NCBI GenBank assembly: GCA_021787565.1
Contig: JAJYLT010000007.1
Coordinates: 1 to 64,000 of the forward strand
Length of the DNA stretch: 64,000 bases
From: Acidobacteriota bacterium
Lineage (GTDB): Bacteria > Acidobacteriota > UBA4820 > DSQY01
Direction: 5' to 3'
In this document: in pieces, positions 42,056 to 54,615 of the stretch
Position numbering within the stretch: position 1 is the stretch's first letter
Layout of the letters: every line of letters starts with the position of its first letter
Translations under genes and position numbers: made by a program
Notes under the pieces: model-generated
Told to the model about the DNA's origin: nothing
Databases searched by the model: none
What the model saw: the letters and a program-made list of their open reading frames with translations, nothing else

Positions 42056-42075
42056 CGGCGCCTAGCCAGCGTCCC

Positions 42076-43494
42076 TCACCGGTTCAGCACGTGGATGGCC
42101 TCGCCGAGGGCGGCTTCCACCGATTCCAGGAGCCCCTCGCTCATGGTGGGGTGGGGATGGATGGTCTGGCTCAGGTCGTCCAGGAAGGCCCCCATTTCGA
42201 TGGCCAGGGCCGCCTCGCCGATCATCTCGCTGGCGTCCGCTCCCACGATGTGCACGCCCAGGATCCGCTTGGTCTCCGCGTCCGCCACGGTCTTCACGAA
42301 GCCCTCCGTGGCGTTGAGGGTCATGGCGCGGCCCGAGGCGTGGAAGGGGAAGGTGCCCGTGACGACCTTGTAGCCCTGGGCCTTGGCCTCCATCTCGGAG
42401 AGGCCGGCCCAGGCGATTTCGGGGTCGGTGTAGATGACCGCGGGGATCACCACGTTGTCGAAGGCGGAGGCCTCGCCGGCGATCACCTCGGCGGCCACCT
42501 TGGCCTCCCGGTAGGCCTTGTGGGCCAGCAGCGGCCCGCCCACCACGTCGCCGATGGCGTAGATGCCGGGCACGTTGGTCTCCATGCGATGATTGACCCG
42601 GATGAAGCCCTTGGGCTCCTGCTGAACACCGGCCTCCTTGAGCCCGAGCCCCTCCACGTTGGGAACCCGGCCCACCGAGACGAGGATCTTGTCCGCCTCC
42701 AGCAGGGTCTCGTTGTCGTCGCGGCCCTGGATGCGCACCTTGTTGGGGCGTCCCTTCTTGTAGCCCATCGCGCGCTGGCCAAGGTAGAGCTCGATGCCCA
42801 GGTTCTTGAGCCTTCTCGTGATGACTTCGCGCAGCTCGGGATCGTGCTGGGTGAGGAGCTCGGGGAAGAACTCCACGATGGCCACCTCCGAGCCCAGCCG
42901 CCGGTAGACCGACCCGAGCTCGAGGCCGATGTAGCCACCGCCGATCACCACGAGCCTCTTCGGCACTTCCCTGAGGGTGAGTGCCTCCTTGGAGCCGATC
43001 ACCCTCTCCCCGTCCACGGGGAAGCCGGGGAGCGGAAAGGGGATGGAGCCCGTGGCGATGACCGCCTGCTCGAACTCCACGAGCTGGGGTCCCGATTCGG
43101 TAGCCACCTCCAGCTTGCGGTCGCTGAGGAAGCGGGCGCGCCCCTGCAGGATGTCGGCGCCGTTCTTGGTGGAGAGGAACCGGACCCCGTCGGTGAGCTT
43201 CTTGACGATCTGGTCCTTCCAGTCCACGAGCTTGCCGAGGTCCACGCCCACGACGTTGACCGTCACGCCCATCCTGGAGGCGAACTGGGTCTGCTCCACG
43301 AAATCCGCGGCGTGGATCATGGCCTTGCTGGGGATGCACCCCTCGTTGAGGCAGATGCCGCCCAGGCTCTTCTCGGCCTCGATGAGGAGGACGTCCTTCT
43401 TGAGCTGGGCGAGGCGGATGGCGGCCAGATAGCCGCCCGGTCCGGAGCCGATGACGGCCACTTGGCAGCCCTTGCTAAAGGATCCCACGACCAT
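42076..43494 (-). CDS. lpdA: dihydrolipoamide dehydrogenase (E3)
   Basis: A 472-aa FAD enzyme that reoxidises the lipoyl groups of E2 with NAD. FAD-binding VAVIGSGPGGYLAAIRLAQL; redox disulphide GGICLNEGCIPSKAM; NAD-binding VVIGGGYIGLELGSVYRRLG; C-terminal dimer motif with the active-site His in TIHPHPTMSEGLLES. Normal length. It follows the E2 gene by about 126 nt on the same strand, completing the pyruvate dehydrogenase set. Confidence 0.98.
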   Translation of the reverse strand: MVVGSFSKGCQVAVIGSGPGGYLAAIRLAQLKKDVLLIEAEKSLGGICLNEGCIPSKAMIHAADFVEQTQFASRMGVTVNVVGVDLGKLVDWKDQIVKKLTDGVRFLSTKNGADILQGRARFLSDRKLEVATESGPQLVEFEQAVIATGSIPFPLPGFPVDGERVIGSKEALTLREVPKRLVVIGGGYIGLELGSVYRRLGSEVAIVEFFPELLTQHDPELREVITRRLKNLGIELYLGQRAMGYKKGRPNKVRIQGRDDNETLLEADKILVSVGRVPNVEGLGLKEAGVQQEPKGFIRVNHRMETNVPGIYAIGDVVGGPLLAHKAYREAKVAAEVIAGEASAFDNVVIPAVIYTDPEIAWAGLSEMEAKAQGYKVVTGTFPFHASGRAMTLNATEGFVKTVADAETKRILGVHIVGADASEMIGEAALAIEMGAFLDDLSQTIHPHPTMSEGLLESVEAALGEAIHVLNR

Positions 43495-43620
43495 GACTTT
43501 CTCCTCTGAAAAGATGCTTCGGCGAGGCCCGCCGGGAGATCATCGGACCCAGGAGGGGCCATCCCGGAGGGATCCCGCGTTTCCCCCGTGGTCCATGTCA
43601 CCCGATCTGGTTCGGTCGCC

Positions 43621-44886
43621 TCACAGACTGACCATGAGGAGCCCCGGGTTCTCGAGCAGGCGCACCAGGTCGGTGGCCGCCCTCGCCCCCTCGGCCCCGT
43701 CGATGATGCGGTGGTCGAAGCTGATGGCGATGTTCATGAGCTTGCGCGGTACGACCGCGCCGCCCACCACGGCCGGCCTCTCCTTGATGGCGAAGAAGGC
43801 CGCGATGGCCAGCTCGGGCTGGTGAATGATGGGCGTGGCGATGAGGCCCCCGATGGGCCCAATGTTGGTGATGGTGAAGGAGCCGCCCTTGAGCTCGTCG
43901 AGGGAGAGGCGGCGCTCCCGCGCCCGCTGGGCCACGTCGGCGATCTCGCGGGCCAGCTCGAGCATGTCCTTCCGATCGGCGTTCTTGAGCACCGGGACGA
44001 TGAGGCCGTCGGGCGTATCCACCGCCATGCCGATGTGGTAGTAGCGCTTGAGGACGATCTCCCCCCTGGCCTCGTCGTAGCTGGCGTTGAGCAGCGGGTG
44101 TCTCTCGAGCATGGCCACCACCGCCTTGACGAAGATGGGCATGAGGGAGAACTTGGTCCCGCCGTTCGCCTCCACGGCGCCCTTCACCTTGCGGTAGAGC
44201 TCCACCAGGTCGGTGACGTCGGCCTCGTCCACGTGGGTCACGTGGGCGGAGGTGCGCTTGCTCGCCGCCATGGCCTCCGCGATCACCTTGCGCAGGTGGG
44301 AGATGGGTTCTCGGGTCACGGGGCCCACCTCGGTGATCTCGACCGGCGCCGAGGGGGCCGCGGGAGCGGAGCTCGGCGGGGCCGGCGCGGCTTGGAAGCC
44401 GGCGGTCGTGGAGCCCTTCAGGGCGCGGTCCACGTCCTCGTCGGTGATGCGGCCGCCCTTGCCGGTGGGAGCGGCCGAGGCGAGGTCCACGCCCAGCTTG
44501 CGCGCGTAGGCCCGCGTGTGGGGAGTGGCGAGGATTTTCCCCGAGTGCGATGGGGGAAGAGCGGCGGACCGAGGCACGACCGCGGGCGCGGCTGGAAGGG
44601 CGGGAGCCGCCGGAGCCGCGGCGGCGGATGCCCTGGCGCCGTTCTCGCCCGGGGCACCGAACACGGCGATCACGTCTCCCACGTGGATCGTCTCCCCGGC
44701 GGCGAACCGCAGGGCCAGAACGCCGCCGGCCTTGGGAGCGGGCAGGTCCACCACGGCCTTGTCGGTCTCCACCTTGACGAAGGGCTGGTCCACGGCTACC
44801 GCGTCGCCCTCCTTGACCAGCCACTGCACGATCTTGCCTTCGTGGATCCCCTCCCCGACGTCGGGGAATCTGAATTCAAGCGACAT
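43621..44886 (-). CDS. pdhC: dihydrolipoamide acyltransferase (E2) of pyruvate dehydrogenase
   Basis: A 421-aa core subunit. One lipoyl domain (about 1-80) with lipoyl-lysine 43 in VETDKAVVDLP; an Ala/Pro linker; the subunit-binding domain ILATPHTRAYARKLGVDLAS; a second linker; and the trimeric catalytic domain with IAISFDHRIIDGAEGARA, containing the DHRxxDG active site. The single lipoyl domain is typical of Gram-positive-type and branched-chain complexes. An 87-bp repeat element separates it from pdhB, so the locus may be split into two transcripts. Confidence 0.95.
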   Translation of the reverse strand: MSLEFRFPDVGEGIHEGKIVQWLVKEGDAVAVDQPFVKVETDKAVVDLPAPKAGGVLALRFAAGETIHVGDVIAVFGAPGENGARASAAAAPAAPALPAAPAVVPRSAALPPSHSGKILATPHTRAYARKLGVDLASAAPTGKGGRITDEDVDRALKGSTTAGFQAAPAPPSSAPAAPSAPVEITEVGPVTREPISHLRKVIAEAMAASKRTSAHVTHVDEADVTDLVELYRKVKGAVEANGGTKFSLMPIFVKAVVAMLERHPLLNASYDEARGEIVLKRYYHIGMAVDTPDGLIVPVLKNADRKDMLELAREIADVAQRARERRLSLDELKGGSFTITNIGPIGGLIATPIIHQPELAIAAFFAIKERPAVVGGAVVPRKLMNIAISFDHRIIDGAEGARAATDLVRLLENPGLLMVSL

Positions 44887-44967
44887 CCTCGGCCTCTCCT
44901 CATGGATTGCTCGGTACCTACCTTAGCACGCTCGGCGCGCAGCGGTGTTCGCGGGGCATCGGGCCGA

Positions 44968-45054
44968 GAGCGGGGAGGCTTCCTCCCCGCACCCCTCCGT
45001 GTGCTGTCCGTCGCCTGCTTCCATGGTGAACCTATCACTGGGACAGCGCACTAG
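44968..45054. repeat. 87-bp inverted-repeat element, copy 2
   Basis: Same layout as 38584-38670. In the second stem GTGTGCTGTCC pairs with GGACAGCGCAC, a changed C-G pair where copy 1 has T-A, so the pairing is kept. Its right end again supplies the minus-strand stop codon (45051-45053), here of pdhB. Confidence 0.8.
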
Positions 45055-46091
45055 AATTCGAGCGCGCGCTTGGCGGCGGCCACGACCCGCTCGCGGTTGG
45101 GGAGGTAGTGGTTCTCCAGCAGGGCGTGGGGGAAGACGACGTCGTACCCGGCGACCCGCTCCACGGGGGCCTTCAGGTGAACCAACGCGCGTTCGTTGAT
45201 GAGGGCCACGATCTCCGCCCCGAAGCCGCCCGTCCGCGGCGCCTCGTGGACGACCACGGCCCGGCCCGTCTTGGTCACCGATTCGATGATGGTCCCCGCG
45301 TCCACGGGGCTGAGGGTCCGAAGGTCCACCACCTCGGCCGAGATCCCGTCGCGGGCCAAGGCGTCGTGGGCCTCCAGGGCCTGCCGCACCATGGAGCCGT
45401 AGGCGATGATCGTTAGATCCGTGCCCGTTTTGACGACCTTGGCCTTGCCGATGGGGACGGTGTACGGCTCGGAGGGGACCTCCTCCCGGAAGGCGCGGTA
45501 GATGCGCTTGGGTTCCAGGAAGACGACGGGGTCCTCGTCTCGGATGGCCGAGGCCAGGAGCCCCTTGGCGTCGTACGGAGTGGAGGGGACCACCACCTTG
45601 AGGCCGGGGGTGTTCACTAGGAGCGCCTCATAGGACTCGGAGTGGTGCTCCGGCGGGTGGATGCCCCCGCCGTAGGGCATGCGCACCACCATGGGCAGGT
45701 GGGTGCGGCCCCTGGAGCGGTTCCGCATCCGGGCCGCGTGGGCGAAGAGCTGGTTCAGGGCGGGGTAGAGGAAGCCCATGAACTGGATCTCCGCCACCGG
45801 GCGGAAGCCCGCCGCGGCCAGGCCGATGGAGAAGCCCACGATGCCGCTCTCGGCCAGCGGCGTGTCCATCACCCGCTCGCTACCGAAGGCATCGAGCAGC
45901 CCCTCGGTGACCCGGAACACGCCCCCGTCCCTGCCCACGTCCTCGCCCAGGACCAGGACCGTCTCGTCCCGTTCCATCTCCGCCTTGAGGGCCTGGTTGA
46001 TCGCCTGCACCATGGTCAGGCGCTCGGCTGGGCTCTCCACGGCCCTGAGGCTCCGTTCCTGCTGGCTCGCCGCCGCCTGTTGCCGGGTCAT
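45051..46091 (-). CDS. pdhB: pyruvate dehydrogenase E1 beta subunit
   Basis: A 346-aa subunit of the thiamine-dependent E1 component. Typical blocks: ETVLVLGEDVGRDGGVFRVT, DTPLAESGIVGFSIGLAAAG, VAEIQFMGFLYPALNQL, MPYGGGIHPPEHHSES and AVVVHEAPRTGGFGAEI. Length about 20 aa over the common 325 because of an N-terminal extension. It overlaps the E1alpha stop by 4 nt. Its stop codon is formed by the end of an 87-bp repeat, so the natural C-terminus may once have been different. Confidence 0.95.
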   Translation of the reverse strand: MTRQQAAASQQERSLRAVESPAERLTMVQAINQALKAEMERDETVLVLGEDVGRDGGVFRVTEGLLDAFGSERVMDTPLAESGIVGFSIGLAAAGFRPVAEIQFMGFLYPALNQLFAHAARMRNRSRGRTHLPMVVRMPYGGGIHPPEHHSESYEALLVNTPGLKVVVPSTPYDAKGLLASAIRDEDPVVFLEPKRIYRAFREEVPSEPYTVPIGKAKVVKTGTDLTIIAYGSMVRQALEAHDALARDGISAEVVDLRTLSPVDAGTIIESVTKTGRAVVVHEAPRTGGFGAEIVALINERALVHLKAPVERVAGYDVVFPHALLENHYLPNRERVVAAAKRALEF

Positions 46092-47161
46092 CGTCCCACC
46101 TCCCTCGCCATCTCGTCACGCTGTTCCTGAAGGTTCCAGGGCATCTGCGCGTACATGGTCTCGAACATCTCTACCGGAGAGGGTGCGGGCATGGCCTCCA
46201 GCCGTTCGACCTCGGCCTCGATGGCCGCCGCGGCCTCCTCGGCGAGGGCGACCTCCTTCTTGTCGTTCCAGAGTTTTCGGCTCACGAGGAACTTCCGCAT
46301 TCGGTCGATGGGGTCGCGCTCTCTCCAGTAGAGGAGCTCCTCTGCGGGGCGGTACCGAATGGCGTCGTCCGCCGTAGTGTGGTTCTCCATGCGGTAAGTG
46401 AGCGCCTCGACGAGCGTGGGCCCCCCGCCGGAGCGGGCCCGATCCACCGCCTCCTTCGCCGCGGCGTAGACCGCCAGCACGTCGTTCCCGTCCACCTGGA
46501 TGCCCTGGATGCCATAGGCGTGGGCTTTCTGGGCGATGGAGTCGGCGGCCGTCTGGCGTTTGAAGGGCACGGAGATGGCCCACTGGTTGTTCTGGATCAG
46601 AAACACGGTCTGGGTCTGAAAGATCCCCGCGAAATTCAGCGCCTCGTGGAAGTCGCCCTCCGAGGAGGCTCCGTCGCCGGCGAAGCCCACCGCCACGGCG
46701 GCCGCTTGGCGCAGCTTGAGGGCCATTCCCACGCCCGCCGCGTGGAGCAGCTGACTGCCCACGGGTATGGAGGGCGGCAGGCAGTTCACGCCCTCGGGGA
46801 ACAGGTCTCCGCGCTCGTCGCCCTTCCAGAAGGCGTAGATGAGGTGCGCGGGGATGCCCCTGAGCGTCATGATGCCGTGCTCTCGAAAGGAGGGGACGAG
46901 CCAGTCCTGGGGCTCCATGGCCAGGGCCATACCCGCCTGGCAGGCCTCCTGTCCGCGCAGGGAGGCATAGGTCCCCGTGCGGCCCTGTCGCTGGAGGTTG
47001 AGCGCCTTTTCGTCCAGCTTGCGCATCTGGATCATCATGCGGTAGAGCGTCAGCAACTGGTCATCCGAGAGGTCCGGCAGGAGGGTCTTGTCCACCCTGC
47101 CGTCCTTGTCCAGTATCTCCAGCCGCTCGGTCACGGCCTGGTGAATGATCTTCCTCGGCAT
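46088..47161 (-). CDS. pdhA: pyruvate dehydrogenase E1 alpha subunit
   Basis: A 357-aa subunit that binds thiamine diphosphate. The GDG...NN cofactor motif is in VGFAGDGASSEGDFHEALNF and FLIQNNQWAISVP. The phosphorylation-loop region reads MENHTTADDAIRYRP, and the C-terminus MFETMYAQMPWNLQEQ resembles Bacillus PdhA more than branched-chain E1alpha. ATG 47161 has AGAGGAG upstream. Forms an alpha2beta2 tetramer with pdhB. Confidence 0.95.
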   Translation of the reverse strand: MPRKIIHQAVTERLEILDKDGRVDKTLLPDLSDDQLLTLYRMMIQMRKLDEKALNLQRQGRTGTYASLRGQEACQAGMALAMEPQDWLVPSFREHGIMTLRGIPAHLIYAFWKGDERGDLFPEGVNCLPPSIPVGSQLLHAAGVGMALKLRQAAAVAVGFAGDGASSEGDFHEALNFAGIFQTQTVFLIQNNQWAISVPFKRQTAADSIAQKAHAYGIQGIQVDGNDVLAVYAAAKEAVDRARSGGGPTLVEALTYRMENHTTADDAIRYRPAEELLYWRERDPIDRMRKFLVSRKLWNDKKEVALAEEAAAAIEAEVERLEAMPAPSPVEMFETMYAQMPWNLQEQRDEMAREVGR

Positions 47162-47283
47162 TCGCGCTCTCCTCTTCGATTCCGGTCCATCCGGGGTGGA
47201 GCCCCCCTCGGACGCAACCACCTGCCCTTTGTAAGCAAGAGTCTTGCCGTGGCGGTGCCGGGGTACGCCCGGTGGGCGACCGA

Positions 47284-48120
47284 CTAGGGGACGATCACCC
47301 AGCGCGGATCGGTCTCCCGCGCCTCGGACCCTGGCGGGAGGGGAAGCAGCGCGGGTTCGGGCTTCAGAGGGGAGGTGAGGTCAGAGGCTATTCCCCCGGC
47401 CAGCGCCGGGGCGAGAGCGTCGGCGCCCTCTGGCGACGGGCAGGGCAGCGTCCCCATGGCGGCTTCGATGCGGGCCGCGGGCACGCCGAAGATCCGGGCC
47501 TGGACCTCGGCATCCAGGCGAAAGAGGAGCGTGCCGTGCACCAGCACCGACCGGTTCCTGCGGGCCTGAGCGCACCCCAGCACCTTCCGGCCCCCCAGGA
47601 GCAGCGTCTCCGTGCGGTGGTCCTCGAAGCAGATGGGGGAGCGGACCGTAGGAGAGGGCGGACGGACGGCCAGCCGCTCCGTGAGGATTCCGGCGGCCGC
47701 CAGCCCGGTGCGCACGGATCCGGCGAAGGCGTCGTAGAGCCCCTGGATTCCTTGCGCCCAAGGGTGGGAGGCCGGAAGACAGAGGCAGAGCGAGAGGGCT
47801 CCGTGGTGGTAGACGGCCGTTCCCCCGGTGCTCCGCCGCAATACCGGAATGCCCTTCCGCCCGCAGAAGTCCAGGTCCACCACCCCTTCCGGGTTCTGTC
47901 CGTAGCCCAGCACGAGAACCGGCCCGGCCCAGGCGTAGGTGAGCAGATTCAGAGATCCCTGGCCCGCTTCATCGAGCAGGAGTTCCTCCAGGAGCAGGTC
48001 CGAGAGGGGCCGGTTGTTGGGGGAATGCCACCAGTGCAGGACGGGCTCGGCCTCCAAGGTCCGCCTCCATGCTCCCGGCGAGTCTATCAGAACGGACCAA
48101 GGAGGCCCACGTTGTTTCAT
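47284..48120 (-). CDS. lplA: lipoate-protein ligase A family protein
   Basis: A 278-aa enzyme of the biotin/lipoate ligase fold that attaches lipoate to E2 lysines. Core motifs: VLRRSTGGTAVYHHGALSLC (substrate-binding loop) and GGRKVLGCAQARRNRSVLVH with the catalytic Lys. The small C-terminal accessory domain of E. coli LplA is not evident, so it could instead be an octanoyltransferase-type enzyme (LipM-like). ATG 48120 is preferred. Proximity to the pyruvate dehydrogenase genes suggests that E2 is its substrate. Confidence 0.85.
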   Translation of the reverse strand: MKQRGPPWSVLIDSPGAWRRTLEAEPVLHWWHSPNNRPLSDLLLEELLLDEAGQGSLNLLTYAWAGPVLVLGYGQNPEGVVDLDFCGRKGIPVLRRSTGGTAVYHHGALSLCLCLPASHPWAQGIQGLYDAFAGSVRTGLAAAGILTERLAVRPPSPTVRSPICFEDHRTETLLLGGRKVLGCAQARRNRSVLVHGTLLFRLDAEVQARIFGVPAARIEAAMGTLPCPSPEGADALAPALAGGIASDLTSPLKPEPALLPLPPGSEARETDPRWVIVP

Positions 48121-48325
48121 GGGCGTTTCATCGGTGCAACTTCGGCTGGCAGGGTCCCTCCCTCCGAAACGTCGCCGGGGCCCAGGCGGGGCGAAACCAG
48201 GGAGGGGAGGGCTCTCCGGGGTTGACCGAGGCCGTGCGAGCTGGGAAACGGCTCCATGCAAGAGGTCGATGTCGCCGCTCTTTTTTGTGGAATGCGAGGG
48301 AGTTTTGTGTGTTTCCCTGAAGCTC

Positions 48326-48463: not shown

Positions 48464-51142
48464 ATGTCAGAGGCCCACCGTGTAAGCGGGTTGTGCGAGA
48501 CCGCGAAAGGGAGAGGGGGTACCCGCCTCGTCCGTTTCGCATCGGCCCTTCTGGCCCTGGGGGCGCTCCTCTGGTTCGCTCCCGTGCAGGCAGGTCCGGC
48601 TGAGCCGGCTGCCGTCGGCCTTGCTCCGCTGCCGTCGGCGACCTCCTCTTCGGGACTGGCCTCCAAGGGAATTTACCCTTTCCAGTCCGCCGTGCAGGGA
48701 GGCGCGGAGCGGACCATGCCCGCCGCCTTCGACCTGCGGGCCGGGGCCCCGCTGCCGCGCCTCGAGGCGCTGGGCCAGCAGCCGTCAGATCCCTGGGTTT
48801 CCGCGCTCTGGACGGGCGTGGCTCTCCAGCTCCAGGGCAGCGCGACGATCCCGGATCCCTCGGCGGCAAGCGCCTTCCGACACGATGCGCCGGGAAGCGT
48901 GGCGTCGGCCGTAAACCTCTGGGCTCAGGTCGGGCTGAAGACCCTGTCGGGCGAGCGGATGGTGCCCGAAGGCTGGCGGGCTCTGCCCCGCGGTGATCGG
49001 GCTATCCAGGAGGCTCTCCTGGGCGGGACGCCGGTTTTCTCGCTCATGGCCAGCGGATTCTCGGGCTTTGCGACCTACGATGGCAGGAGCGTGCTCAGCT
49101 ATGAGGGTGAGGCCGCGGCTGACCGATCCGTGGTCATCCTAGGCTGGAGCGACGATGCCCTCGGTACCGGACAGGGCGCCTGGCTGGTCTACAGCGGCGA
49201 TCCGAGTTGGGGCGACGGTGGCATCGGGTACGTGGCCTACGGCTCCGCGGGCATCGGTACGGCCGCCACGGCCATCACGGGATTCCGCGCGGCTTCGCGA
49301 GGAGAGAGCCTCTACCTTCAGGATTACGCCGGGCCAGACCGGCTGGCGGGGTTCGGCCGGCCGGGAGCCTGGGCCGCCGAGCGCTACGTGGCCCGCGGGA
49401 ATGAGGCTCTCAAGGCGGTAGAATTCTGGCTCCCCGAGCCGGGCGCGAGCTACACGATCCGAATTTATCGGGACATTCAGGGTGGACGGCCCCAGCACCT
49501 GCTGCTGAAGCAGTCGGGCAGTGCGCAGGACTCGGGGTACGCGAGCGTGGCCCTGAACAGCCCGATCCAAGTCCAACGGGGCCAACCCTTCGTGGTGGTG
49601 CTGGGCCTTGAAGGGGCCGCAGCAACCGGCTACCCGCTGGCGGTGGACACCCGGGACGCCGGCATGCCTTCGGACGGGGCCTACTTCAGTGCGGACGGGT
49701 TACATTTCGCGGTCTCCGAACTCCTCCGCCCCGGGTTGCGCGTGAGGGCCGTGGCCGAACAGGGAGTACCCGAGGCCACCTCGATCCTCACCTTCACCGC
49801 CAGTTCGCCGGTGGTGGCGGCGAGCCCCATGACCTTCAGCTTTGAGGCCCAGGGGACCAACGCTGCCGACGCGTTGACCTACACCCTGGACTTCGGTGAT
49901 GGTACGGCCAAAGATACAGGCGCCTTGACGGCCAACACCCTGACCACCGCGGACCACACCTACGACAAGGCGGGGAGCTACGTGGCCACTTTGACGGTCA
50001 CGGATACGGTGGATAACACCACCGCCACGGCCTCCCTCACGGTCACGGTGCTGATCTCCGTCACCGCCACCTCCGACGTCAACTGCGGGCTTGCCGCGCT
50101 CAACGTCTGCTTTACCGGCGGCGCCAGTAATGGCACGCCACCCTATACCTACCTCTGGACCTTTGGAGACGGTGCTACCTCTTCAGATGCCTCCACGTGC
50201 CACGCATACCTCAAGCCGGGCACTTACTCTGCCGTACTGTCGGTCCGTGACGCGGCCGGAGCCACGGGGCAGGGCCCTGCCCTCACCATATCGGTGAGCA
50301 CCCCTATGACGGTCTCTATCCAAGCCAGCACCTTGGATGGTATTGATCCAACAGTGGTGAATTTTACGGCTTCTGTAACCGGGGGCCTACAGCCCTACAG
50401 CTACACCTGGGACTTCGGCGATGGCTCCACGGCTCCTCCCCCTACCGTCAACAATCCGCAACATGCCTTCAACGCAGGCACCAGCACCAGTTCGGGAACG
50501 CCCAACTGCTTTACGGTCACCCTTTCGGTCACCGACAACTGCCAACAGACGGTGAGCGCCAGCTCGGTGACGGTGCGTGTTCACCCGGTTCCTTGGGTCC
50601 AGATTACCTCCCCGGCGGCCGGAACCGTGGGCCACGCGAGCATCACGATCGCGGCCAATCCGGTGACCACGGCCGGCGCTACGATCACTCGCGTGGACTT
50701 CTACGTCAACGGCACCTATCTGGGCTCGGCCACCGCTCCGCCGTGGGCCATCGTCTGGGACGCCCGCGGCCTCAATGAGTCGGCCAACATCACCGCCACG
50801 GCTTACGACTCCCTGGGTAACAGCGCTAGCTCGGACGAGGACCCCTGCTCCACGGCCTCGGTCCCGGTTACCATCACCGTATCCAACCCCGCTCTGAACG
50901 GCCAGGTCCAGGCCAAGAAGGGGCCCTTCCGTGTGCGGGTCTTCGGGCTTGGCTTCATGCGCGGCTCGACGGTGTACATCAACAACGTGGCCGTCCCGCA
51001 TTCCGTGGCGAAGGGCACCACGCTCGTGGTGGCGAAGGGCGGCAAGGCCTTGAAGGCCATGATCCCGCCCGGCGTACCGGTGATCCTCACGGTGAAGAAC
51101 CCCGACGGGGGAGAATCCCTGAGCGTAACCTTCACGCGCTGA
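48464..51142 (+). CDS. secreted papain-fold protein (catalytic residues absent) with PKD domains
   Basis: 892 aa. A signal peptide ends about residue 44. Residues 85-275 follow a papain (C1) fold: FDLR opening, ADRSVVILGWSDDALGTGQG where papains have the catalytic His, and WLVYSGDPSWGDGGIGYVAY where they have the Asn. The His is Ser222, the Asn is lost, and there is no Cys between residues 45 and 280, so it cannot be a Cys protease. Then a jelly-roll-like segment (about 280-440), three PKD domains (YTLDFGDGTAKDTG, YLWTFGDGATSSD and YTWDFGDGSTAPPP), one Ig-like domain with VDFYVNGTYLGSATAPPWAI, and an IPT-like C-terminus. It is probably an adhesin or binding protein. Confidence 0.78.
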   Translation: MSEAHRVSGLCETAKGRGGTRLVRFASALLALGALLWFAPVQAGPAEPAAVGLAPLPSATSSSGLASKGIYPFQSAVQGGAERTMPAAFDLRAGAPLPRLEALGQQPSDPWVSALWTGVALQLQGSATIPDPSAASAFRHDAPGSVASAVNLWAQVGLKTLSGERMVPEGWRALPRGDRAIQEALLGGTPVFSLMASGFSGFATYDGRSVLSYEGEAAADRSVVILGWSDDALGTGQGAWLVYSGDPSWGDGGIGYVAYGSAGIGTAATAITGFRAASRGESLYLQDYAGPDRLAGFGRPGAWAAERYVARGNEALKAVEFWLPEPGASYTIRIYRDIQGGRPQHLLLKQSGSAQDSGYASVALNSPIQVQRGQPFVVVLGLEGAAATGYPLAVDTRDAGMPSDGAYFSADGLHFAVSELLRPGLRVRAVAEQGVPEATSILTFTASSPVVAASPMTFSFEAQGTNAADALTYTLDFGDGTAKDTGALTANTLTTADHTYDKAGSYVATLTVTDTVDNTTATASLTVTVLISVTATSDVNCGLAALNVCFTGGASNGTPPYTYLWTFGDGATSSDASTCHAYLKPGTYSAVLSVRDAAGATGQGPALTISVSTPMTVSIQASTLDGIDPTVVNFTASVTGGLQPYSYTWDFGDGSTAPPPTVNNPQHAFNAGTSTSSGTPNCFTVTLSVTDNCQQTVSASSVTVRVHPVPWVQITSPAAGTVGHASITIAANPVTTAGATITRVDFYVNGTYLGSATAPPWAIVWDARGLNESANITATAYDSLGNSASSDEDPCSTASVPVTITVSNPALNGQVQAKKGPFRVRVFGLGFMRGSTVYINNVAVPHSVAKGTTLVVAKGGKALKAMIPPGVPVILTVKNPDGGESLSVTFTR

Positions 51143-51219: not shown

Positions 51220-53157
51220 TTACCGGATCACGATGGGGTAGGTCAGGTTGGTCTTAACGGGGACGCCGTCCTTGAGCGCCGGGGAGTAGCGCACCCGCAT
51301 CGCGGCCTCGCGGCAGGCCTCGTTCATCCCGTAGTCCGGGGTCAGCCCCCGGACGATCTTCGCGTCGGTGACGCGCCCCGTCTCGTCGATGGTGACCTGC
51401 ACGTAGATCGTTCCGTGCAGGCCATTTTGGATGGCCATGGGCGTGGCCTTGATGGACGGCTCTCCGATCTGTTTGGGGCGCGCATCCACGGCCCAGAGCT
51501 CCACGAAATCGCCGGCCTTGGTCTGCTTTGCGGGGGGGGCCTCCGCCCCGGTCTTCGCTGCAGCAGGGCTGGTGCCGGGTGAAGCCGTCGCAGGTTCGGC
51601 CGGAGATCCCGACGCGGCTGGCGAGGCGGTTCCGGCGGAGGGCGATCCCTTGCTCCCCGCCGGGGCAGGTGCGGGAGGAGGGGCGGCGGACTCTTTCGCC
51701 GGAGCGGCTGGGTGGGTCGATCCCTCGGCCGGCCGGGCGCTGGATTCGGTGAGCTGCCGCTGGGCCTCCTGCTGGACCTTCAGGCGCTTCTGGGCCTCCT
51801 CCAGGGCCTTCTGGGCCTGTGCCTTCTCCGTGGTCGTCTTGGCCGTCTGGGACTTCTGAAGGAGGGCGTCGCGCTCCTGCTGGAGGTCCTGGATCTTCTT
51901 GTTCATCTCCTCCTGCTGTGCCTTCAACTGGCTTCGCTCCGCGCTGATCTGCGCGAGCTGCTGCTGGGCTTGGATCTCCGCCTTGGAGGGACCCCTCGGC
52001 CTGAAAAAGGCCACGTAGACCAGACCGGCCACCACCAGCAGCGCCGCTGCCACTCCGAGGCCGATGAAGAGTCCCTTGCGGCTGGGCTCCGGTTCGAGGC
52101 CGAAGGTGGACTCCTCGACGGTCGGGGAAGCAACCGGCTGGGATTCGATCGGCGCGGGCGGAGCGGGAGCCGCCGGGATCGCCGGGGCCGGTTCGGGTTT
52201 CGGCTCCGACTTGGGGTGGTAAGGTGCGCGGTCCAGCGTCCGCATGGTTTCGTCCGTGGAGGCGTCGGCCTCATCCTCTCCCCGAAAAAGGGAGTGCATG
52301 AGGAAGGCGATGTTGAAGGTAGTGGGGCTATACTCTCCCGAGGCGATGAGCTGGTCCAGGTCCCCCTTCATGGAGGCCAGCTCGGTGTAGGCCCCGGGCT
52401 GGTCCGGCAATAGGCTCTTTCTCAGGATGGCACAGAGGTTTCCCGGGAGGGCATCGCTGGGGCCGAGGCCCTTTTCAGCCTCGCCGATGCGCGCCTCCGC
52501 GTCGAAGGGATAGCTCCCCGTGTGGAACGGCTCTCTGAGCAAGAGCTGGAAGAAGATGGCTCCCAGCGCGTAGATGTCCGCATTGGGACGGGCCGGCTTC
52601 CCTCCGGCCAGGCTTCCGGGCAGATGCCCCAGGAGTGTTTGCAGGATAGGGTCGGCCAGCAAGGGGGTGGTCTGGAGGTCGCGGCAGAGGCCGGGGACGA
52701 CCTTCACTTCGCCCTCGAAGGTCACCAGCACGCTTTCGGGAGAGAGGGCCCCGTGGAACAGCCCGCCGCCGGAGTGGGACAGGAGCGCTCCGGCCAGCCG
52801 TTCGGCCAGGTAGACCGACTGGTCGTGAGCGAGCGGCAGCCCCTCGGCCCGGCTCCTTTCGAGAAGGTCGGAGAGGAGGCGTCCGGGGCAGTGCTCGATG
52901 GCCGCGTAGGGAGTTCCGTCCACAAGGCCCGAGGCCATCAGGTTGAGCGTGTGAAGATCCCGCACGCCCGACCACTGTTTGGCATTTCTCTGGATGAGCT
53001 TGACGGCCTCCGGCGCCTTGACCACCGCAGGCGCGGGCACGAAGACGAGGCGAAGCTCCTGAGGGCCATCCAGGGGCACGGCCCGGAAGACCTCGCCCAG
53101 CGACGTCCGGGAAAAGCTCTCACCGAGGAGAAAGGCTCCAAAGGTCCGCGGCTTCAT
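51220..53157 (-). CDS. pseudokinase-TonB C-terminal domain fusion
   Basis: 645 aa. Residues 1-275 have the outline of a bacterial Ser/Thr kinase (GEVFRAV, then LAERLAGALLSHSGGGLFHG, later ADIYALGAIFFQLLLREPFH), but the catalytic parts are replaced: HRDLKPEN is HGALSPES (135-142), DFG is VPG (154-156), and no VAIK Lys is evident. A single membrane helix is at 363-385, a Gln/Lys-rich coiled coil at 390-470, a Pro/Ala linker at 475-548, and a TonB C-terminal domain at about 565-645 (GTIYVQVTIDETGRVTDAKI and MRVRYSPALKDGVPVK). The topology places the pseudokinase inside and TonB outside the inner membrane. Convergent with the PKD gene. Confidence 0.85.
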   Translation of the reverse strand: MKPRTFGAFLLGESFSRTSLGEVFRAVPLDGPQELRLVFVPAPAVVKAPEAVKLIQRNAKQWSGVRDLHTLNLMASGLVDGTPYAAIEHCPGRLLSDLLERSRAEGLPLAHDQSVYLAERLAGALLSHSGGGLFHGALSPESVLVTFEGEVKVVPGLCRDLQTTPLLADPILQTLLGHLPGSLAGGKPARPNADIYALGAIFFQLLLREPFHTGSYPFDAEARIGEAEKGLGPSDALPGNLCAILRKSLLPDQPGAYTELASMKGDLDQLIASGEYSPTTFNIAFLMHSLFRGEDEADASTDETMRTLDRAPYHPKSEPKPEPAPAIPAAPAPPAPIESQPVASPTVEESTFGLEPEPSRKGLFIGLGVAAALLVVAGLVYVAFFRPRGPSKAEIQAQQQLAQISAERSQLKAQQEEMNKKIQDLQQERDALLQKSQTAKTTTEKAQAQKALEEAQKRLKVQQEAQRQLTESSARPAEGSTHPAAPAKESAAPPPAPAPAGSKGSPSAGTASPAASGSPAEPATASPGTSPAAAKTGAEAPPAKQTKAGDFVELWAVDARPKQIGEPSIKATPMAIQNGLHGTIYVQVTIDETGRVTDAKIVRGLTPDYGMNEACREAAMRVRYSPALKDGVPVKTNLTYPIVIR

Positions 53158-53316: not shown

Positions 53317-54615
53317 TCACTTGGCGGGGGTGCAGCGGGCGAGCACGTCCTTCACGAAGCTCTTGTTGACCATGTAGGTGAGCATTTTGAGCTTCACGTA
53401 GTCGTCGCGGTAGTAGAAGTAGCCGTCGGGCGGCACGCGCCGCGAGGCCCTGGCCGAATCCTTGATGAGGAACCAGTCGTGGCCGCCCATGCGCGCGTAC
53501 CCCACGAGATGGATGCCGTGGTCGTCCGAGGTGGCCCCGTCTTCAAACCGGAGCTCCCTCGCATCCTGGTTGATGTCGCGCCGGGGGATATCGAAGCTCG
53601 GGATGACGGCGATCTTGTTGGCGCTGGAATATCCCGGCTCGCTCACGTCGCCGCCGATGGCCACGGTGGAGCCCGCCTTGACGGCCTTCACCAGGGCGTC
53701 GTACCAGACCTCCAGGGGCACGTTGTAGTAGCTCTTGTCGTGCCACCAGTTGTCCTCCACCTTGTACTCGCCCTGGGTCCAGAAGGGGACGGACTCGGTG
53801 GACATGAAGCTCACGTAGTCATCGAGCTGAAGCTTCAGCACCTCGGTCAGGAACTGCTGAGGCGTGTAGGTCCGGCCCCCCCACTTCACCTTGGTGGGAG
53901 GAGCGCCCATGTATTTGTTCATGATCAGCTTCAGGGTGTCCAGAATTTGAGCCTCGTCCCAGCAGTCGTGGTCCTTGCAGTAGGCCAGGTAGTCCTGCAT
54001 CTCCTTGAGCATCTGGGAGTGGTCGTAGCGACCGTCGGGGCTGAGGACGCCGGGGTAGGCCGACTCGGGGACGATGCCGTAGATCTTCCAGATGCGGGGA
54101 AGGGCCTCCGACTCCGAGCCCTCCTCGAAGACCGAATGGCCGCGGGTTTCGATGTACCGCTTGGCCTTCTCCAGGTATTCGTGGTAGACCGTCCACATCT
54201 CGCTGAGCTTGATCTTCTGGCCCGTCAGCCTCTCGACTTCCGACTCGAAATAGGAGGTGGTGGAGAAGGACCAGCAGGTGCCCGTGAGGTACTGGGCGAC
54301 CGGGGGGAAATGCCAGCCCTGCACCTTGAAGTCGGCGGGCGAAGAGGGCCGCGCGATCTTGCTCATGTCGAAGGTGAGGTCCTTGCGCTGCGCCTCCTCC
54401 TGCTTGGCGAGGGCCTCCTGGGCGTCGTCTATGGCCCTGGTCTTCGCCTCCCTGGCCTCCGCCGCCTTGCGGTCCGCCGCTTCCATCTGGTCCAGGACGG
54501 GGTCGCTGTAGTGGGGGACGTAGTAGGCCTTGTCCGGAGGCGGAGGGGGGGCGGTCGCGGGAAGGAGCAGCGGGAACAGTGTGGCCAGTGCGGCGGTGAG
54601 AGCCAGTCGCTTCAT
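53317..54615 (-). CDS. secreted C1-family (bleomycin-hydrolase-like) cysteine peptidase
   Basis: 432 aa. A signal peptide (about 1-22), a charged helical segment (about 40-82), then the peptidase: QYLTGTCWSFSTTSYFESEV with the nucleophile Cys 114, and DDHGIHLVGYARMGGHDWFL with the catalytic His. The next block is LIKDSARASRRVPPDGYFYY and then YVKLKMLTYMVNK. The usual Asn of C1 enzymes is Asp here, which I recall from related aminopeptidase-C-like proteins, so activity is still likely. Export distinguishes it from cytosolic PepC. It lies next to the pseudokinase-TonB gene on the same strand. Confidence 0.86.
   Translation of the reverse strand: MKRLALTAALATLFPLLLPATAPPPPPDKAYYVPHYSDPVLDQMEAADRKAAEAREAKTRAIDDAQEALAKQEEAQRKDLTFDMSKIARPSSPADFKVQGWHFPPVAQYLTGTCWSFSTTSYFESEVERLTGQKIKLSEMWTVYHEYLEKAKRYIETRGHSVFEEGSESEALPRIWKIYGIVPESAYPGVLSPDGRYDHSQMLKEMQDYLAYCKDHDCWDEAQILDTLKLIMNKYMGAPPTKVKWGGRTYTPQQFLTEVLKLQLDDYVSFMSTESVPFWTQGEYKVEDNWWHDKSYYNVPLEVWYDALVKAVKAGSTVAIGGDVSEPGYSSANKIAVIPSFDIPRRDINQDARELRFEDGATSDDHGIHLVGYARMGGHDWFLIKDSARASRRVPPDGYFYYRDDYVKLKMLTYMVNKSFVKDVLARCTPAK

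Follow-up and report, generated by a model that had tools for sequence, protein, structure and literature searches.

A protein family of Acidobacteriota that joins a pseudokinase to a TonB C-terminal domain

The window analysed here is a 64,000-nucleotide stretch of contig JAJYLT010000007.1 from a member of Acidobacteriota, and the gene under study occupies positions 51220-53157 of its minus strand. The encoded protein consists of a pseudokinase, one transmembrane (TM) helix, a coiled coil, a Pro/Ala linker and a TonB C-terminal domain (TonB_C), an architecture that had been proposed in an earlier sequence-only reading and that was borne out by the sequence, Pfam and structural models. The part that precedes the TM helix is 360 residues long, and the coiled coil begins immediately behind the helix. 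The features of the gene are the following:

51220-53157, minus strand: pseudokinase-TM-coiled coil-TonB_C gene, an open reading frame (ORF) of 645 amino acids with an ATG start and with orthologues
52342-53157, minus strand: pseudokinase domain, residues 1-272 (AlphaFold2 model of residues 1-305, Foldseek match to PknB)
52732-52755, minus strand: degenerate catalytic loop HGALSPES, residues 135-142, where active relatives have HRDxxxxN
52690-52698, minus strand: degenerate DFG motif, read as VPG, residues 154-156 (from the alignment)
52243-52341, minus strand: C-terminal kinase extension, residues 273-305, SGEYSPTTFNIAFLMHSLFRGEDE, the best-conserved stretch
52006-52074, minus strand: single TM helix, about residues 362-384, with neither His nor SHLS motif
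51748-51990, minus strand: predicted periplasmic coiled coil, about residues 390-470, Glu/Gln/Lys-rich and helical-looking, judged by eye from the sequence
51523-51747, minus strand: Pro/Ala-rich linker, about residues 471-545, seen in the sequence and evolving fast
51223-51522, minus strand: TonB C-terminal domain, residues 546-645, with the Pfam core (574-642) at 51232-51438

The match of the N-terminal part to PF00069 was marginal (14.8 bits, cut-off 31.7), and no other Pfam family was recognised in it. Sequence comparison with StkP and PknB chains gave E values of 8e-12 to 1e-7. When residues 1-305 were modelled by AlphaFold2 with 22 family members, a kinase fold was obtained with a predicted local distance difference test score (pLDDT) of 92.5 and a predicted template modelling score of 0.92, and the best Foldseek matches of this model in the PDB were PknB and PknA (M. 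tuberculosis PknB, E 4e-14). The domain thus has the fold of Hanks-type Ser/Thr kinases, and the catalytic Lys, the HRD Asp and the DFG Asp are missing from it: HRDxxxxN is replaced by H135-G-A-L-S-P-E-S142, DFG by V-P-G (154-156), and the position of the VAIK Lys is taken by Phe39.

We aligned the active sites of 42 sequences, 22 pseudokinases of the family and 20 intact relatives. The catalytic K/D/N/D residues were present in 20 of the 20 intact relatives, and the HRD Asp in none of the 22 pseudokinases. Reading 40 full or nearly full proteins of the family, we found it absent in all 39 testable members; L150, whose active site is masked by N, was excluded from this count. In most pseudokinases HRD has become HG or YG, while DFG has been lost in varied ways, and the loop is 24 residues long in most members, equal to that of active relatives. 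The alignment with the 20 active sister kinases also ruled out that intact Lys, Asp or DFG residues lie at shifted positions, so the loss of the catalytic motifs noticed in the sequence-only reading holds. The domain is a pseudokinase, a kinase fold without catalytic motifs, and this condition is conserved in the family. Considering that SelO and SidJ are pseudokinase folds with chemistry of another kind, a rearranged active site might carry out AMPylation or glutamylation; nevertheless the family conserves no canonical Mg-ATP residue, the positions of the HRD Asp, the Asn and the DFG Asp varying freely, and we regard this explanation as highly improbable. A tie to antiphage kinases was also discarded, the NCBIfam MADS6 match (31 bits, cut-off 460) representing generic kinase similarity.

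At the other end of the protein, PF03544 (TonB_C) matched residues 574-642 with 42.2 bits (cut-off 24.6), and the NCBIfam model TIGR01352 gave 39.4 bits (cut-off 27.1); the NCBIfam AgmX/PglI tail matched weakly (26 bits, cut-off 40). The C-terminal domain modelled by AlphaFold2 reached a pLDDT of 95.1 and was matched in the PDB to TonB in complex with FoxA (6i97_D, E 1.3e-5, template modelling scores 0.74/0.81), while TolA domains ranked far below TonB. The TonB assignment therefore has a structural counterpart and, since neither shifted catalytic residues nor a lack of structural match was encountered, the observation of a dead kinase fold joined to TonB_C in a single ORF is confirmed.

The analysis went beyond the sequence-only reading in three respects: the protein belongs to a phylum-wide family, this family has an active sister, and its best-conserved segment lies outside the kinase fold. 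This segment, [ST]TFNxAF, is located directly behind the fold, in an extension modelled as two helices (280-290 and 294-304). Between the window and its relative in genome G001 the extension showed three silent changes and zero amino-acid changes. This bears on the possibility that the protein is a purely mechanical tether from the inner membrane to the cell wall or the outer membrane, with the pseudokinase as a mere anchor. The coiled coil and the Pro/Ala linker are probably of sufficient length to span the periplasm and the motor motifs are absent, as such a tether would allow; however, an anchor needs no such conservation of its cytoplasmic extension, and we consider this alternative improbable.

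Most of the sequence data used were metagenome-assembled genomes. A scan of one genome collection recovered orthologues from Acidobacteria assemblies with 37-91% identity, nearly full length in most cases, and whole-genome searches found the pseudokinase-TonB protein, as a single copy, in 13 of the 13 genomes of the class to which the window belongs. For the phylum, we used a profile of 56 columns around the C-terminal extension and took as strong those matches with E below 1e-9. One strong match per genome was obtained in 37 of 99 sampled Acidobacteriota, in ORFs of 566-746 amino acids distributed over many families; a 38th match, in G067, was rejected because it is an active kinase of the sister family. 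Outside Acidobacteriota, the two deltaproteobacterial matches of a pattern scan corresponded to ordinary active kinases and covered the kinase part only.

The ratio of nonsynonymous to synonymous substitution rates (dN/dS) between the window protein and that of G001, 91% identical, was 0.24 overall, 0.21 in the kinase part and 0.16 in TonB_C, the regional values being rough, with few changes in some regions. As judged by these ratios, the whole gene is clearly under purifying selection. The degenerate active site could suggest a decaying kinase gene, an assembly chimera or a misannotation, but the overall ratio, the recovery of the same architecture from 40 genomes, single-contig ones included, and the grouping of the pseudokinases in one clade with 100/100 support refute this idea, to which we give practically no credit; a pseudogene, a frameshift, a chance ORF or a chimeric contig is ruled out on the same grounds. 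From the comparisons as a whole we conclude that the product is, by its sequence, a conserved, non-catalytic trans-envelope protein.

The sequence-only reading had called the TonB domain energy-transducing, and this was not supported. The SHLS motif of the TM helix is the site by which TonB and TolA attach to their motors (PMC12204202), and the D-box of TonB binds ExbD (PMC10907165). None of the 22 orthologues had a His in or beside the TM core, an SHLS pattern or a Pro-flanked D-box. In 18 further members the 19-residue TM core was also free of His, with a His in the flank in two of them, and the TM His and the D-box were likewise absent from the proteins of the sister family. By comparison, the TM His was present in the four ordinary TonB-like proteins examined in the window genome (G000), and the exbB-linked TonB of this genome (C18), located beside two exbD-like genes, has both the His and the D-box PITISFFSAAP; the pattern scan for D-boxes also missed the second TonB of the genome (C14) and is not fully sensitive. 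Because the SHLS His and the D-box are absent, though present in the exbB-linked TonB of the same genome, the pseudokinase-TonB protein does not, on its sequence, qualify as a TonB energy transducer, and this absence lowers the odds of motor coupling. It shares with TonB transducers the fold of the C-terminal domain and the Pro-rich linker; it differs from them in the 360-residue part before the TM helix, the coiled coil after it and the lack of exbB linkage. As the sequence-only reading had stated, no exbB is nearby: there is none in the window, and a genome-wide search for motor genes, which covered ExbB-type genes only, found two ExbB/TolQ genes, both on other contigs.

A motor-driven force transducer, in which ExbBD, TolQR or a further TolQ-type motor acts on the TM helix and the pseudokinase decides when force reaches an outer-membrane receptor, has to be weighed against these data. 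It is the idea of the sequence-only reading, and GltG (PglI) of Myxococcus xanthus gives it a precedent. GltG has 640 residues, with an FHA domain at 26-90 and TonB_C at 570-637 (PMC3169522, PMC5349195), and interacts with the TolQ-like AglR (PMC3169522). The window protein shares with GltG and GltJ (AgmX) of this gliding machinery both the size and the plan of a cytosolic signalling domain, one TM helix, a periplasmic helical part and TonB_C; it differs in carrying a pseudokinase in place of the FHA head, no FHA domain being recognised in it. GltG also has its AglRQS motor partner and glt gene cluster, and the loci examined showed no recognisable equivalent next to the pseudokinase gene. The match of the TonB_C fold to the TonB of receptor complexes favours such a transducer, and so do the importer and receptor genes that accompany the active sister gene. 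Against it stand the absence of both motor motifs from all 22 orthologues and the sister family, a complete canonical TonB-ExbB-ExbD set on another contig and, in the loci examined, the lack of a recognised exbBD or receptor gene next to the pseudokinase gene. We judge it rather unlikely. The further proposal, that by sensing a ligand in the cytoplasm the protein gates transport at the outer membrane, may hold, though its nearest support is indirect: the importer and receptor genes stand beside the active sister gene and not beside the pseudokinase gene itself.

This sister is also encoded in the window genome (G000:C70; L038 6453-9881). Its 1142 amino acids run from a receiver domain through an intact kinase, which bears the motifs VAIK, HRDVSPQN and DFG, and a TM helix to TonB_C. 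It was present in 12 of the 13 genomes of the class; G002 yielded a fragment only, and the copy of G004 ends at a contig edge before TonB_C. It was also found in at least eight more genomes of the phylum; of the 16 genomes with a pseudokinase in a 40-genome sample, at least 11 had it, the co-occurrence counts being lower bounds. Within the class the gene sits between ffh and the genes of a BtuF-like binding protein, a permease and an ATPase, which resemble a BtuFCD importer, and much of the gene order at the locus is kept. These genes are followed, in the window genome, by that of a TonB-dependent receptor (BtuF-like protein, ATP-binding cassette importer and receptor at L038:10302-15247). Because importer genes adjoin it, with the receptor gene in the window genome in addition, the arrangement suggests a link of the active sister to vitamin B12-type uptake. 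The sister family is apparently undescribed.

Three clades emerged in an unrooted maximum-likelihood tree of the kinases: one of the 22 pseudokinases (100/100), one of 17 ordinary kinases (100/99) and one of the receiver-kinase-TonB proteins (97/94), the last enclosing two rows classed as other, including the truncated G004 copy. With a root among the ordinary kinases, the two TonB families would be sisters, and the simplest history would be that an ancestral kinase-TonB fusion was duplicated and one line lost catalysis. The TonB_C of the window protein shared 60% identity with that of its active sister and only 29% and 23% with those of the genome's two canonical TonBs. Taking into account this identity, the neighbouring clades and the co-occurrence of the two proteins, the pseudokinase may be a dedicated regulatory subunit of the receiver-kinase-TonB protein, forming a heterodimer or a mixed cluster through the kinase lobes and a shared TonB_C target, and activating or restraining the kinase. 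Nevertheless, a strong pseudokinase match is missing from G027 and G067, which carry the active form, the pseudokinase may stand alone in five genomes, and the two genes were never adjacent in the loci seen; we hold this alternative as possible but doubtful.

The reading that we favour, to which we give about an even chance, is that of a bitopic, non-catalytic signalling tether or scaffold that is probably unpowered and may have the active sister kinase as its partner. We infer its function, and with it the topology, the dimerisation, the partner on either side and the direction of signalling. The periplasmic coiled coil would pair two chains into a dimer, and TonB_C, held by the Pro/Ala linker, would bind a beta-strand partner of the TonB-box type at the outer membrane or in the periplasm. 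In the cytoplasm, partners would dock on the platform made by the pseudokinase fold and the [ST]TFNxAF extension, the likeliest being the sister receiver-kinase-TonB protein, phospho-binding (FHA) proteins or both. The state of the outer envelope could in this way be relayed inward with no phosphotransfer by the protein itself and without ExbBD power. A bolder version, unlikely and offered as speculation, is that the kinase/pseudokinase pair with its shared TonB end is a trans-envelope sensor, a TonB in reverse, which would read the occupancy or TonB-box exposure of outer-membrane transporters; the active receiver-kinase would pass the reading on to the cytoplasm, and the pseudokinase would be its allosteric partner.

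The scaffolding reading draws on GltG and on MviN as precedents, and a gene run with an FHA-GAF-cyclase, described below, was also counted in its favour. MviN of M. tuberculosis (ActPs3 family) is phosphorylated by PknB and recruits the FHA protein FhaA (PMC12599244). It is likewise a transmembrane pseudokinase of PknB-type fold in which all three catalytic motifs are lost; the window family differs in its loop, which in most members keeps the 24 residues of active relatives, and in the TonB_C at its far end. EssB/YukC of Firmicutes is, by description, also a membrane pseudokinase acting as a scaffold (PMC12599244), although it is a component of a secretion apparatus and has no TonB_C. The PASTA kinases PknB and StkP, the nearest solved fold, share the layout of kinase, TM helix and extracytoplasmic sensor; the window protein differs from them in lacking the catalytic motifs, in bearing TonB_C in place of PASTA and in belonging to a Gram-negative envelope.

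Three points weigh against the favoured reading. A search designed for another purpose detected no receiver-kinase-TonB protein in the pseudokinase-bearing genomes G015, G024, G030, G031 and G037; strict pairing of kinase and pseudokinase may therefore not be universal. The gene neighbourhoods differ between families and no neighbour is universal, so synteny fixes no partner. Finally, the protein may transmit force even though SHLS is missing, since GltG, built alike, binds a TolQ-type motor (PMC3169522).

No relevant paper on a pseudokinase with TonB, or on a kinase-TonB fusion, was found in the literature searched, subscription journals being largely outside it, and neither TonB nor Acidobacteria appears in a 2025 review on pseudokinase families of bacteria (PMC12599244). 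The pseudokinase-TonB family appears to be undescribed. It would add an apparently new phylum-wide family to the poorly explored bacterial pseudokinases, and it presents TonB C-terminal domains used without motor-coupling motifs and joined to eukaryotic-type kinase signalling. Many of its genomes also hold the active sister family, and this pair, one kinase dead and one live on the same kind of tether, offers a natural comparison for signalling across a two-membrane envelope.

The window genome holds a third fusion of this kind (L005 / G000:C48:13169-13537), with two zinc-ribbon-like motifs, a TM helix without the histidine and a TonB_C 37-41% identical to those of the kinase fusions. Its layout resembles that of GltJ/AgmX.

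The genes on either side of the pseudokinase gene in the window are these:

53317-54615, minus strand: C1-like cysteine peptidase, upstream on the same strand and directly upstream also in G001 and G008; a possible neighbour, link unproven
48464-51142, plus strand: secreted PKD/Ig-domain protein, convergent and downstream in the window; adjacent to the orthologue also in G005, G006, G007, G011 and G012; a possible partner, link unproven

The PKD/Ig gene adjoins the pseudokinase gene in six genomes, and lies on the opposite side of the orthologue in G011 and G012. Its product has a lectin-like domain and an N-terminal part that is papain-type-like without the usual catalytic Cys motif. A glutamine synthetase gene (glnA) is found closely downstream, on the same strand, in G003, G004, G010, G011 and G012, five genomes of two families (L012:2033, L015:1725, L074, L075:3798, L076:9612). 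In two genera of another family, the genes of an FHA-GAF-class III cyclase and a TPR protein lie directly upstream in a tight run (L128:6128-8382, L129:5927-8181). Each of these four neighbours (peptidase, PKD protein, glnA and FHA-cyclase) is clade-specific, and an operon with one fixed partner is ruled out. Elsewhere in the window (42062-48261), a lipoate-protein ligase-like gene stands beside a 2-oxoacid dehydrogenase operon (E1 alpha, E1 beta, E2, E3), with the same order in L011.
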